A DNA stretch of 64,000 nucleotides, from contig NZ_CP035119.1 of the NCBI RefSeq assembly GCF_004087835.1, positions 744,001 to 808,000 of the forward strand, read 5' to 3'. Under the pieces are notes generated by a model that was given only the letters and a program-made list of their open reading frames with translations, had not been told where the DNA came from and did not search any database. This document shows, one piece after another, positions 6,550 to 60,687 of this stretch (the stretch's first letter is position 1; the number at the start of each line of letters is the position of its first letter). The DNA is from Halorussus pelagicus (lineage in GTDB: Archaea; Halobacteriota; Halobacteria; Halobacteriales; Haladaptataceae). The position numbers were made by a program, and so were the translations under genes.

Positions 6550-7629
6550 TCAGTCGGCCGCAACCGGAGACCGACGTTCGTCGCCAGCCATCCGGAGAAC
6601 GTCGTCGAAGAAGCCGAGCGTGTCGTGGGGACCGGGGTTGGCCTCGGGGTGGTACTGGCGCGTGATGACGTTCAGGTCGTCGCTCTCCAGTCCCTCGGCG
6701 GTATCGTCGTTGACGTTGACCTGCGTCACGTCGAGTTCCGGGCCGGGTTCGGCGACGGTGTAGCCGTGGTTCTGGGTCGTCATCACGACCTTGTCGCTCC
6801 GGAGGTCCCGGACCGGTTGGTTGACGCCACGGTGGCCAAAGTCCATCTTCTCGGTCGTGCCGCCGAGCGCGCGCGCGACGATCTGCTGGCCGAGACAGAT
6901 GCCCGCCAGCGGGACCTCGCCGACGAACTCGGAGACGAGCGACTGGGCGGCCTCGAAGTTCGCGGGGTCGCCCGGCCCGTTCGAGACGAACAACACGTCG
7001 GGGTCGAGGTCCGCGACTTCGCCGGGCGTCACGTCGTAGGGCAGGACGTGGACCGTCGCGTCGCGTTCGAGCAGCGACTCGGTGATGGACCCCTTCGCGC
7101 CGCAGTTCACCAGCGCCACGTCGGGACCATCGGCCGCCCCGTCAGGAGTGTGGGTCTCGCGCTGTGAGACGCTGACCTGCGCGCCGATGTCGGTGTGGTC
7201 GCTCATCCCCGGACAGTCCGCGAGCGCCTCCTTGGCCGCCTCCGGAGAGGCGTCGGGACCGGCCGAGATGCCACACTTCATCGCGCCGCCCTCCCGAATC
7301 TGTCCCACGAGGTCGCGCGTGTCGAGGTTGTCCACCGCGGGGACGCCCTCGCTTTCGAGCCATTGGGCCACGTCGTCGGTGAGTTCGCGCGCGACGACCG
7401 CGCGGGGGTGGACTCGCTCGTCCTCGAAGCGCTCCTCTCGGACGCCGTAGTTACCGATGAGCGGGTACGAGAACGTGAGGACCTGCTCCTCGTAGGAGGG
7501 GTCGGTCAGACTCTCTTCGTACCCCGTGTACGCGGTCGTAAATACCAGTTCCCCGTGAGTCGTGCCCGGAGCGCGACAGCGCGCCTCCACGACGCTGCCG
7601 CCTTCCAGTGCCACGTATGCATCTGTCAT
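6550..7629 (-). CDS. carA: Carbamoyl-phosphate synthase small (glutaminase) subunit
   Basis: A 359-residue subunit that releases ammonia from glutamine and channels it to CarB for carbamoyl phosphate, the precursor of arginine and pyrimidines. The N-terminal domain starts TDAYVALEGG. The C-terminal class I glutamine amidotransferase domain has the nucleophile Cys in GICLGQQ near residue 239 and the His and Glu in HPEANPGPHD near the end. I prefer the ATG at MTDAYV; an ATG four codons earlier is also possible. The gene is divergent from an Lrp regulator across a palindrome-rich spacer, and carB is about 50 kb away on the opposite strand. Confidence 0.95.
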   Translation of the reverse strand: MTDAYVALEGGSVVEARCRAPGTTHGELVFTTAYTGYEESLTDPSYEEQVLTFSYPLIGNYGVREERFEDERVHPRAVVARELTDDVAQWLESEGVPAVDNLDTRDLVGQIREGGAMKCGISAGPDASPEAAKEALADCPGMSDHTDIGAQVSVSQRETHTPDGAADGPDVALVNCGAKGSITESLLERDATVHVLPYDVTPGEVADLDPDVLFVSNGPGDPANFEAAQSLVSEFVGEVPLAGICLGQQIVARALGGTTEKMDFGHRGVNQPVRDLRSDKVVMTTQNHGYTVAEPGPELDVTQVNVNDDTAEGLESDDLNVITRQYHPEANPGPHDTLGFFDDVLRMAGDERRSPVAAD

Positions 7630-7648
7630 TACGAGATTCATACGTAAT
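7628..7648. promoter_or_regulatory. Inverted repeat ATTACG-N9-CGTAAT at the carA start
   Basis: The arms ATTACG and CGTAAT overlap the carA translation start, so a bound protein would sit on or just after the transcription start. The same half-site recurs in the Lrp-side palindrome at 7680-7696 and before carB. A TATA-like TTTATAC on the minus strand lies between the two sites. Confidence 0.5.
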
Positions 7649-7679
7649 ACCGGTGTATAAACCTTGCTTTCGTAGCGAG

Positions 7680-7696
7680 ATTACGAATTTCGTAAT
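7680..7696. promoter_or_regulatory. Perfect 17-bp palindrome between carA and the Lrp gene
   Basis: ATTACGAA-T-TTCGTAAT is a perfect dyad of the size and AT-rich core expected for an Lrp/AsnC-family binding site. It lies about 50 bases from carA and 36 bases from the regulator gene, placing it in both promoters. Autoregulation plus control of carA is the simple reading; this is inference. Confidence 0.6.
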
Positions 7697-7731: not shown

Positions 7732-8145
7732 ATGGACGAACTCGACCGCGAAATCCTGAGCATCCTCCGCCGAGACGCCCGAAAACCGTACACCGAGATA
7801 GCCGAACAGGTCGGCACGTCGGAAGGGACGGTCCGCAACCGCGTCGAGCGCATGGCCGACGACGGCGTCATCGAACGCTTCACCGTGACCACCCGGACGG
7901 GCAACGTGAAGGCGATGATAGAACTCGACGTGGCGGTGGACGTGAACACCTCCGACCTCGGCGAGCGCGTGGCCGACTGGGAGCAGGTGGACTTCGTCTG
8001 GCAGGTCTCGGGCGAGGAGGACATCGTACTCGTCGTGGACGCCGCCGACACCCAGAGCGTGAATCAGTTGATTTCGAAAGCGCGCGAACTGGAGGAAGTC
8101 GTCAACACGAAGACGCGCCTGATTCTGGACGAGAAGTTGGGGTGA
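7732..8145 (+). CDS. Lrp/AsnC-family transcriptional regulator
   Basis: A 137-residue regulator. Residues 1-55 are the winged helix-turn-helix (MDELDREILSILRRDARKPYTEIA, then GTSEGTVRNRVERM), and residues 60-137 are the RAM ligand-binding domain, ending with a conserved VNTKTRLIL strand. Family members form octamers or dimers and often sense amino acids or related metabolites. The divergent position next to carA and the shared palindromes suggest control of carbamoyl-phosphate synthesis, perhaps in response to arginine, glutamine or another nitrogen signal. The effector cannot be read from the sequence. Confidence 0.92.
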   Translation: MDELDREILSILRRDARKPYTEIAEQVGTSEGTVRNRVERMADDGVIERFTVTTRTGNVKAMIELDVAVDVNTSDLGERVADWEQVDFVWQVSGEEDIVLVVDAADTQSVNQLISKARELEEVVNTKTRLILDEKLG

Positions 8146-8470: not shown

Positions 8471-8553
8471 GGATGGATGTTCGGTGAACGCGTTTCAGTT
8501 ACGAAAACCGAAACCGGATCGAATCGCGTTTACACCCCCCGATTCCGACGTTC

Positions 8554-36090: not shown

Positions 36091-36480
36091 CTACTCGTTT
36101 ACTCGTGAGTCGTCTCGTGCGGGCGGCGTCTTCGAGACGACGACCCCGAGGTCCCCGCGGTGGTCGGCGACCGCCCGATAGACCCCTTCCCGGAACTCCT
36201 CGTAATCCTTGAAGTTCCGGAGGAACCCGACCAGCGGAGCGAGTTCGTCGGCGACGTTCGACCGGACAAGAGCCTGTTCCAGCGACTCGCCACAGGAGTA
36301 GACTTCGCCGTCGGTCAGTAGGTGCGAACACGACTCGTAATCGTCGGGCAGGCGCTCGCGCTGGTCGTCGGACAGTTGCGTGAAGCCGACGACCTCGAAG
36401 TCCGAGCGTCGTTCGAAGAAGTCGGCCCACCACGTACAGAATCCGCAGTCGTCGTCGTAAACGAGCGTAGCGTCGTGCAT
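36091..36480 (-). CDS. DCC-family (DUF393) thiol-disulfide oxidoreductase
   Basis: A 129-residue protein with the DCC signature YDDDCGFCTWWADFF at residues 7-21, the thioredoxin-like CxxC active site of DUF393. A conserved helix near residue 95 (LRNFKDYEEFREGVYRAVADHR) is typical of the family. No signal peptide; it acts in the cytoplasm, substrates unknown. I chose the Met at MHDATLV, eight codons into the longer ORF, because family members start near this point. Convergent with tfs. Confidence 0.85.
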   Translation of the reverse strand: MHDATLVYDDDCGFCTWWADFFERRSDFEVVGFTQLSDDQRERLPDDYESCSHLLTDGEVYSCGESLEQALVRSNVADELAPLVGFLRNFKDYEEFREGVYRAVADHRGDLGVVVSKTPPARDDSRVNE

Positions 36481-57308: not shown

Positions 57309-57365
57309 TTACGAAAATCGAAATCCGGTTCCGAGACTCGTAATTCATCGTCGGATTTATTACGA
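57309..57365 (+). promoter_or_regulatory. carB promoter with TTACGA half-sites
   Basis: TTACGA occurs at 57309-57314, TCGTAAT at 57338-57344, and ATTACGA at 57359-57365; the last two form an inverted pair 14 bases apart. A TATA box TTTATTA (57356-57362) overlaps the last site and lies 29-35 bases before the carB ATG, so a protein bound there would compete with TBP. The same half-site is used in the carA/Lrp palindromes. Confidence 0.6.
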
Positions 57366-57390
57366 TGAGCGAACTCCTCTCTACCAACGA

Positions 57391-60300
57391 ATGACCGACG
57401 ACACAGCAGGCGACGGACGGACCATTCTGCTCATCGGTAGCGGACCGATTCAGATCGGACAGGCCGCAGAGTTCGACTACTCCGGCGCGCAGGCCTGCCG
57501 CGCGCTACAGGAGGAGGGCGCGCGAGTCGTGCTGGTCAACTCCAACCCCGCGACCATCATGACCGACCCCGAGATGGCCGACGAGGTGTACATCGAACCC
57601 ATCACGACGGAGGCCATCGCCGAAATCATCCGGAAGGAGAACCCGGACGGCGTTATCGCGGGTCTCGGCGGCCAAACCGGACTGAACGTCACCGCGGAAC
57701 TCTCCGAGGAGGGCGTCCTCGAAGAGTACGACGTGGACATCATGGGCACGCCGCTGGATACCATCTACGCCACCGAGGACCGCGAACTCTTCCGCCAGCG
57801 CATGGAGGAACTGGGCCAACCCGTCGCGCGCTCGACGACCATCACGCTGGACGACGACGAGGAGGTCTCGGCCATCACCGAGGACGACCTCGAAGAGCGC
57901 GTCGAGGCCGCGGTCGAGGAGGTCGGGGGTCTCCCCGTCATCGCTCGGACGACCTACACGCTCGGCGGGTCGGGGTCCGGCGTGGTCGAAGAGATGGACG
58001 AACTCCTCAAGCGCGTCCGGAAGGGCCTGCGCCTCTCGCGCAACGGCGAGGTCCTGATTACCGAATCTATCTCCGGGTGGGTCGAACTGGAGTACGAGGT
58101 GATGCGCGACGCGGGCGACTCGTGTATCATCATCTGCAACATGGAGAACATCGACCCGATGGGCATCCACACGGGCGAATCAACGGTCGTGACGCCCTCG
58201 CAGGTCATCCCCGACGACGGCCACCAAGAGATGCGCGACGCCGCCTTGGAGGTCATCCGCGACCTCGGTATTCAGGGCGGCTGTAACATCCAGTTCGCGT
58301 GGCGCGACGACGGCACCCCCGGCGGCGAGTACCGCGTCGTGGAGGTCAACCCCCGCGTCTCGCGGTCGTCCGCCCTCGCCTCGAAGGCGACGGGCTATCC
58401 CATCGCCCGCGTGACGGCGAAGGTGGCGCTCGGCAAGCGCCTCCACGAAATCGAGAACGAGATTACCGGCCAGACCACCGCGGCCTTCGAGCCAGCAATC
58501 GACTACGTGGTCACGAAGGTCCCGCGATGGCCCAAGGACAAGTTCGGCGACGTGGACTTCGAGTTGGGCACCGCCATGAAATCGACCGGTGAGGCGATGG
58601 CCATCGGTCGGACCTTCGAGGAGAGCCTGCTCAAGGCCCTGCGCTCCTCGGAGTACGACCCCGACGTGGACTGGAGCGCAGTTGACGACGACACCCTCGA
58701 AACCGACTACCTCGAAACCCCGACGCCGGACCGTCCCTACGCGATGTTCGAGGCCTTCGACCGCGGATACACCGCCGAGGAGGTCGTGGACCTCACGGGC
58801 ATCTACGAGTGGTACGTCGAGCGGTTCCAGAACGTCGCCGAGGCCGCCGTCGCCGCCCAAGAAGGCGACTTCGAGACGGCCGCCGAGCGCGGGTTCACCG
58901 ACCACGAGATTACCGCGATTGCGGGCGGCGAGTTCGACGACACCCACTCCTCGTGGATTCCCGACGAGGACGGCACGGCGTCGGCCGACGCGGCCGACGC
59001 CCCGGAGAAACCGACCGACGGCGCGGGCGTCACGGTCGAAGACGTGGAGGCGAACGCGCCCGAGCGAGACTTCAAGCAGGTGGACACCTGTGCGGGCGAG
59101 TTCGCGGCCTCCACGCCGTACTACTACTCTTCGCGCAGACCCGGCGCGGGACTCGGGCGCGACGAGGTACAGGTCGATAGGGACGTAGAGAGCGTCGTCG
59201 TGGTCGGCGGCGGTCCCATCCGCATCGGACAGGGCGTCGAGTTCGACTACTGCTCGGTCCACGCGGTCCGCGCCCTGCGCGAGCAGGGCATCGAAGCCCA
59301 CGTCGTGAACAACAACCCCGAGACCGTCTCGACGGACTACGACACCTCCGACGGTCTCTTCTTCGAGCCGATTACCGCCGAAGAGGTCGCCGACGTTATC
59401 GAGACGGCGAACGCTGACGGCGTGATGGTCCAGTTCGGCGGCCAGACCTCCGTGGACATCGGCGAACCGCTCGAAGCCGAACTCGAGCGCCGCGGACTCG
59501 ACTGCGAGATTATGGGCACCGCCGTCGAGGCGATGGACCTCGCAGAGGACCGCGACCGGTTCAACCGCCTGATGGACGAGATGGGTATCAGCCAACCGGA
59601 AGGCGGCTCTGCAACGAGCGAGGAGGAAGCGCTCGAACTCGCTCACGACATCGGCTACCCGGTCCTCGTCCGTCCCTCCTACGTCCTCGGCGGGCGCGCG
59701 ATGGACGTAGTGTACGACGACGAGGAACTGAAAGAGTACATCGAGGAGGCCGTCAGGGTCTCGCCCGACAAGCCGATTCTCGTGGACGAGTTCTTGGCGG
59801 ATGCGGTCGAACTGGACGTGGACGCCGTGGCGGACGGCGAGGACGTACTCATTGGCGGCATCATGGAACACGTCGAATCGGCGGGCGTCCACTCCGGGGA
59901 CTCCGCGTGCATGATTCCGACGCGCGCGCTGGACGACGACACCCTCGGGAGAGTCCGCGAGGTCGTCGAGAACATCGCGGCCGCGTTAGATACGGTCGGC
60001 CTGCTGAACGTCCAGTTGGCGGTCCAAGACGGCGAGGTGTACGTCCTCGAAGCGAACCCGCGCTCCTCGCGCACCGTTCCGTTCGTCTCGAAGGCGACCG
60101 GCGTCCCCATCGCCAAACTCGCCGCGAAGGTGATGGCGGGCGAGTCGCTGGCGGAGTTGGACGCCGACGAGCAGATTCCCGAGCAGGTCAGCGTCAAGGA
60201 GGTCGTGTTGCCCTTCGACCGCCTGCCGGGGAGCGACCCGCGTCTCGGCCCGGAGATGAAATCGACCGGCGAGGTCATGGGTACCGCCGACACCTTCGGC

Positions 60301-60687
60301 AAAGCCTACGACAAAGCGCAGGACTCGACCGGCAAGCCGATTCCTGAGGAGGGAACCGCGCTGGTGGACCTCACCGACGACTTCGAGGAGTATTTCAGCA
60401 CCGAGGAGTTCGCCGACTACTTCGAGGTTGTCACCCCCGACGAGTTCGAGGACGACGCCGAGAACTGGACCGACCACGCCAAGCAGTCGGTCTTAGAGGG
60501 GAACATCGACTGCATCGTCTCGCGGAACCGAGACCTGCTGGAGACCGCCGTCGAGGAGGAAATCACGTACTTCTCGACCGAAGCGAGCGCCGCGGCGGCG
60601 CTCGAAGCGCTCGCCGCCAAAGACGAACCCCTCGACGTGGAACCGGTCGGCGACCGCCGTAAACAGGTTCGCAACTGGGGCGAATAG
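57391..60687 (+). CDS. carB: Carbamoyl-phosphate synthase large subunit
   Basis: A 1098-residue enzyme with two ATP-grasp halves: the first begins SGPIQIGQAAEFDYSGAQAC near residue 16, the second GGPIRIGQGVEFDYCSVHAV near 605. They phosphorylate bicarbonate and then carbamate, using ammonia from CarA. An acidic linker (residues 525-575) separates the halves. The C-terminal allosteric MGS-like domain is shorter than the bacterial one and keeps only part of the usual pattern. The promoter holds the same TTACGA sites as carA. It stands alone, about 50 kb from carA. Confidence 0.95.
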   Translation: MTDDTAGDGRTILLIGSGPIQIGQAAEFDYSGAQACRALQEEGARVVLVNSNPATIMTDPEMADEVYIEPITTEAIAEIIRKENPDGVIAGLGGQTGLNVTAELSEEGVLEEYDVDIMGTPLDTIYATEDRELFRQRMEELGQPVARSTTITLDDDEEVSAITEDDLEERVEAAVEEVGGLPVIARTTYTLGGSGSGVVEEMDELLKRVRKGLRLSRNGEVLITESISGWVELEYEVMRDAGDSCIIICNMENIDPMGIHTGESTVVTPSQVIPDDGHQEMRDAALEVIRDLGIQGGCNIQFAWRDDGTPGGEYRVVEVNPRVSRSSALASKATGYPIARVTAKVALGKRLHEIENEITGQTTAAFEPAIDYVVTKVPRWPKDKFGDVDFELGTAMKSTGEAMAIGRTFEESLLKALRSSEYDPDVDWSAVDDDTLETDYLETPTPDRPYAMFEAFDRGYTAEEVVDLTGIYEWYVERFQNVAEAAVAAQEGDFETAAERGFTDHEITAIAGGEFDDTHSSWIPDEDGTASADAADAPEKPTDGAGVTVEDVEANAPERDFKQVDTCAGEFAASTPYYYSSRRPGAGLGRDEVQVDRDVESVVVVGGGPIRIGQGVEFDYCSVHAVRALREQGIEAHVVNNNPETVSTDYDTSDGLFFEPITAEEVADVIETANADGVMVQFGGQTSVDIGEPLEAELERRGLDCEIMGTAVEAMDLAEDRDRFNRLMDEMGISQPEGGSATSEEEALELAHDIGYPVLVRPSYVLGGRAMDVVYDDEELKEYIEEAVRVSPDKPILVDEFLADAVELDVDAVADGEDVLIGGIMEHVESAGVHSGDSACMIPTRALDDDTLGRVREVVENIAAALDTVGLLNVQLAVQDGEVYVLEANPRSSRTVPFVSKATGVPIAKLAAKVMAGESLAELDADEQIPEQVSVKEVVLPFDRLPGSDPRLGPEMKSTGEVMGTADTFGKAYDKAQDSTGKPIPEEGTALVDLTDDFEEYFSTEEFADYFEVVTPDEFEDDAENWTDHAKQSVLEGNIDCIVSRNRDLLETAVEEEITYFSTEASAAAALEALAAKDEPLDVEPVGDRRKQVRNWGE

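Follow-up and report, generated by a model that had tools for sequence, protein, structure and literature searches.

How can the two subunits of one enzyme be kept together in regulation when their genes are dispersed? This question is raised by a stretch of 64,000 nucleotides from Halorussus pelagicus (referred to as the window, to whose coordinates our positions refer). Here carA, encoding the small subunit of carbamoyl-phosphate synthase (CPS), occupies positions 6550-7629 on the minus strand, while carB, encoding the large subunit, occupies positions 57391-60687 on the plus strand, with its ATG at 57391 about 50 kb from the carA region. Both genes were identified by profile matches above the cut-off (TIGR01368 and PF00988 for carA, TIGR01369 and NF003671 for carB). 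The carA start is probably at 7629 rather than at 7641; the CarA alignments of relatives begin at the methionine at 7629.

The regulator next to carA

Divergently from carA lies a gene for a regulator of 137 amino acids (7732-8145, plus strand). It shows an N-terminal AsnC-type helix-turn-helix domain (PF13404, 64 bits) and a C-terminal RAM ligand domain (PF01037, 48 bits), both above the Pfam cut-off, as is characteristic of the Lrp/AsnC (feast/famine) family. Its best match in the PDB is LrpA of Pyrococcus furiosus (1i1g). With 115 bits against a cut-off of 180 bits, the protein does not belong to the LysM equivalog family of NCBIfam (NF040947).

The regulator is 67% identical to its ortholog in Halobacterium salinarum DSM 3754, whose gene adjoins both carA and carB. 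Since this ortholog occupies the place that PMC4177876 gives for Trh3 (VNG1816G), we regard the regulator as a Trh3 ortholog; the equation with VNG1816G rests on synteny. Orthologs of trh3 are 59-100% identical to each other in our panel of 59 genomes, where paralogs reach about 30-40%. They are present in 58 of the 59 genomes and, as the sampling of the order was extended, in 290 of 292 and then 390 of 392 members.

A Trh3 circuit of H. salinarum has been known since 2014. That publication describes ChIP signals at trh3, carA and carB, motifs conserved in 18 halobacterial species and a carA-carB co-expression of r=0.69 (PMC4177876). As in H. salinarum, the regulator gene in H. pelagicus is divergent from carA with operators shared in the intergenic region, a similar motif precedes the separately transcribed carB, and the arrangement points to autoregulation (PMC4177876). 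In contrast to H. salinarum, where carB is next door, carB is here 50 kb away. The closest Trh3 ortholog with a measured SELEX motif is TvFL3 of Thermoplasma volcanium, and this motif matches the car and trh3 sites (PMC4177876). Joint control of the CPS subunits by regulators that sense end products is also found in Escherichia coli, where ArgR and PurR act on carAB. There, however, carAB is a single operon and the regulators are unrelated, whereas here separate genes are co-ordinated in trans.

Probable operator sites at the two promoters

Between carA and trh3 we found a perfect 17-bp dyad, ATTACGAATTTCGTAAT, at exactly the predicted place (site 1, 7680-7696). Its centre, T7688, is 59 bp from the methionine codon of carA and 44 bp from that of trh3. 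A weak middle site (7662-7674, centre 7668) follows 20 bp from site 1. It consists of a single conserved arm, TTTCGTA (7668-7674), in which the CG step is kept in all 53 genomes compared. The carA TATA box, TTTATACA (7654-7661, minus strand), was assigned from its sequence and its conserved ATAA. A third site, TTACGAGATTCATAC (7629-7643), is centred at 7636, 52 bp from site 1, and spans the predicted transcription start as well as the start codon; its left arm is conserved.

At the carA start, the original prediction had instead paired ATTACG with CGTAAT. Both hexamers exist, at 7628-7633 and 7643-7648, but the panel's four further members of the genus (G011, G028, G043 and G051) lack the CGTAAT arm. 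Because the right arm is not conserved within the genus, this 15-bp-spaced pair was rejected in favour of the dyad at 7629-7643, the conserved partner of site 1.

Upstream of carB, the three expected TTACGA/TCGTAA half-sites were found at 57309, 57338 and 57360, the last overlapping the TATA box TTTATTA (57356-57362, plus strand). They are parts of three dyads. Site 1, TTACGAAAATCGAAA (57309-57323, centre 57316), has two mismatches; site 2, TTCCGAGACTCGTAA (57329-57343, centre 57336), lies 20 bp from it; and site 3, TTACGATGAGCGAAC (57360-57374, centre 57367), overlaps the TATA box and borders it downstream.

The geometry of the sites is strongly conserved. On a dyad score with a maximum of 12 (background 4.0, sd 1.8), the carA/trh3 sites at 0, -20 (the half-site) and -52 reach means of 12.0, 6.8 and 9.7 in 53 genomes, and the three carB sites reach 11.6, 9.9 and 10.5 in 56 genomes. 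In 56 of 59 genomes, a raw count that is inflated by relatedness like all our genome counts, the carB promoter carries TTATTACGA around the TATA box; counted from the first base of this sequence, the dyad centres fall at -41, -21 and +10. The distance from the dyad centre to the carA methionine is 58-59 bp in 53 of 53 unsplit panel genomes, that to the trh3 methionine 39-45 bp. The spacing to carA is thus the less variable one, and the phase to carA is more rigid. The centre spacings of 20 and 31 bp at carB and of 20 and 32 bp at carA are near whole helical turns, and both promoters show the 13-17-bp imperfect inverted repeats at whole-turn spacing that define archaeal Lrp operators. Similar operators at carA/trh3 and carB are kept across haloarchaea, and the half-sites proved to be conserved in relatives, the test that the original prediction had set for itself.

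Are these sites rare enough to be meaningful? The bare hexamer TTACGA is about as frequent in the window as chance predicts (21 observed, 18.9 expected), and for this reason we dropped it as evidence. The 15-mer dyad TTACGAANTTCGTAA, in contrast, occurs five times in the window with up to three mismatches against 0.95 expected, a number reached in none of 100 shuffles, and four of the five matches fall in the carA/trh3 and carB promoters. With up to two mismatches it is found at six places in the 3.49-Mb genome, two of them being carA/trh3 and carB. The exact TWCGAWNWTCGWA occurs at seven places, again including these two, and its reversed control at none. Three of the other five exact places are within coding ORFs and one is near small ORFs. 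Across the panel, the dyad with up to one mismatch is present in 56 of the 59 genomes, mostly as a single copy and nearly always upstream of trh3, while a reversed pattern gave two matches in all 59 genomes together. Further one-mismatch matches in these 59 genomes did not recur outside the car and trh3 sites. Regarding the three genomes without such a dyad, G001 and G057 retain a two-mismatch version in place, and G007 is without trh3.

Some single matches may be mentioned separately. An exact TWCGAWNWTCGWA at C2:140197-140209 (L127:1501-1513) precedes an amidohydrolase-like ORF by about 40 bp and may mark a further Trh3 target. A dyad-like TTACGAAAACCGAAA with three mismatches, at 8499-8513 between the 3' ends of a convergent gene pair, is probably due to chance. 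Moreover, three copies of TCGTAA lie within 260 bp at 36200-36460, away from the car genes.

Separation of the genes and loss of the regulator

The genomes of the order offer natural controls. In 28 genomes carB is less than 15 kb from trh3, whereas in 28 others the two genes are far apart or on different contigs; the carB operators are conserved in both sets. At eight named loci of the Haloferacaceae clade, carA and trh3 themselves have moved 265-3101 bp apart. Each of the eight carries a pair of dyads, with centres at 58 bp from carA and at 39 bp from trh3, which are the distances of the single shared site in unsplit members of the clade. The split state requires four changes on the tree, at least three of which are forced by supported branches. 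In Halorubrum aquaticum and H. cibi (L144 and L147; also G013 and G053) carA and trh3 are separated by a small gene, by eye pyridoxamine-oxidase-like, and an operator is retained on either side of it.

Among 392 genomes, trh3 is absent from just two, G007 and G209. In G209 it is gone from beside carA although the contig runs on. There, the operators at carA have degenerated (ATTACGA, for instance, has become ATTACCG) with the AATTAA core kept, and at carB the two upstream dyads are lost and TTATTACGATG is kept. In G007, dyads were found at neither the carA nor the carB promoter. The TATA boxes persist in both genomes despite the loss of the operators. The third carB TTACGA overlaps the TATA box and outlives the regulator in G209, so that this element is at least partly core promoter.

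Conservation, the duplication of the dyad at split loci and the decay of the sites with trh3 loss all support the proposal that a single regulator co-ordinates both CPS subunits, which is also backed by the ChIP of orthologous Trh3 in H. salinarum (PMC4177876). As the circuit was published there, the proposal is a correct rediscovery. The three-site geometry of 20 and 31/32 bp, the doubling of the operators at split loci and their loss along with trh3 are evidence beyond the published circuit, as far as the accessible part of PMC4177876 describes it.

Mode of action and alternative explanations

With a probability of roughly 0.8, we consider the TTACGAANTTCGTAA-type dyads to be operators of Trh3, arrayed on one face of the DNA, where the resulting complex most likely represses both car genes. 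The sites, geometry, conservation, co-loss and duplication come from our analysis; the ChIP data and the carA-carB co-expression come from H. salinarum. Trh3 dimers would bind the strong anchor dyad and cooperate with the weaker site 20 bp, or two helical turns, away. The third dyad, 51-52 bp or five turns from the anchor, would be on the same DNA face, and the bound protein may bend or wrap the promoter. At the third dyad, the complex would block RNA polymerase and thus repress the two subunits together. Placed between carA and trh3, the anchor dyad may also serve the autoregulation of trh3, and an amino-acid ligand may tune the binding; Arg, Gln and Lys have been predicted as ligands of Trh3 (PMC4236453).

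Related systems make such an arrangement plausible. In archaeal Lrp arrays the sites are as a rule two or three helical turns apart, and Ss-LrpB of Sulfolobus solfataricus likewise uses regularly spaced dyads of 13-17 bp, two or three turns apart, and wraps DNA (PMC2995911). LrpA of P. furiosus blocks RNA polymerase from a site that borders the TATA box downstream, a position like that of site 3 (PMC2995911). Ss-LrpB and LrpA differ from Trh3 in their targets and DNA motifs, and Trh3 may act by a similar mechanism.

The strongest alternative is that Trh3 on the same sites activates carA and carB, with the upstream dyad helping to recruit TBP/TFB as in Ptr2 or BarR, and represses trh3 alone. 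Strong dyads do lie upstream of the TATA box at both promoters, and trh3 expression in H. salinarum shows a weak positive correlation with carA and carB (PMC4177876). Due to this correlation, and since a trh3 deletion in H. salinarum had no growth phenotype (PMC4236453), repression is not established. However, in both promoters there is an overlap of the third dyad with either the transcription start or the TATA box. As this dyad spans the predicted carA start and adjoins the TATA box of carB downstream, RNA polymerase is most likely blocked by the complex, and the match to the blocking position of LrpA (PMC2995911) led us to favour repression. The TATA boxes that survive in both trh3-less genomes, with the operators gone, also point to repression, as they better fit a dispensable repressor than a required activator. 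For the sign of regulation, repression would hence be favoured as the somewhat probable outcome, and activation of the car genes appears doubtful.

It is improbable that the sites serve another regulator, be it a further Lrp paralog or a pyrimidine regulator, with the proximity of trh3 being incidental. Between 5 and 15 Lrp homologs are encoded per genome in the 59-genome panel and the ChIP targets of the H. salinarum Lrp proteins overlap (PMC4236453), but the dyads vanish exactly with trh3 although G007 keeps other Lrp paralogs, a dyad precedes trh3 even where carA is not adjacent, and Trh3 itself was detected at these promoters by ChIP in H. salinarum (PMC4177876). That the palindromes are AT-rich core-promoter elements (BRE, TATA or initiator) or chance is highly improbable: one carB TTACGA does overlap the TATA box and persists in G209, and the bare hexamer occurs at chance frequency in the window, but such elements would be expected at many genes, whereas the dyads are near-private to the car and trh3 promoters genome-wide with almost no control matches, keep a fixed spacing and are lost together with the regulator.

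Returning to repression by Trh3, it seems reasonably probable that the system amounts to an 'operon in trans', in which a single Lrp protein recognises a common array of three sites over 51-52 bp at two promoters that are not linked, and at hardly any other place. Selection would maintain the array separately for each gene; it would be duplicated when carA and trh3 separate and erased when trh3 is lost. This provides a clean sequence-level case of an archaeal regulator keeping together the dispersed subunit genes of a single enzyme. The regulon seems almost confined to car and has a clearly defined operator, and promoter duplication and gene loss serve as natural controls. Trh3 thereby becomes directly testable for the geometry of its binding, the sign of its effect and its ligand.

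Two further observations count against the explanation of the dyads as Trh3 operators. The middle site at carA is only a half-site. Moreover, in the members examined of families f7 and f9 a Trh3 homolog is present and dyads were found at neither carA nor carB. In these families carA and carB are located away from the Trh3 homolog, and a perfect dyad lies upstream of the homolog itself, at about 200 bp in G006 and about 40 bp in G008. On contig C116 of G008 (L094:1-462 and 582-1517), the Trh3 homolog with its perfect dyad is in tandem with the adjoining arcC. This gene encodes carbamate kinase, so that another carbamoyl-phosphate enzyme stands beside the same regulator in a lineage without car operators.
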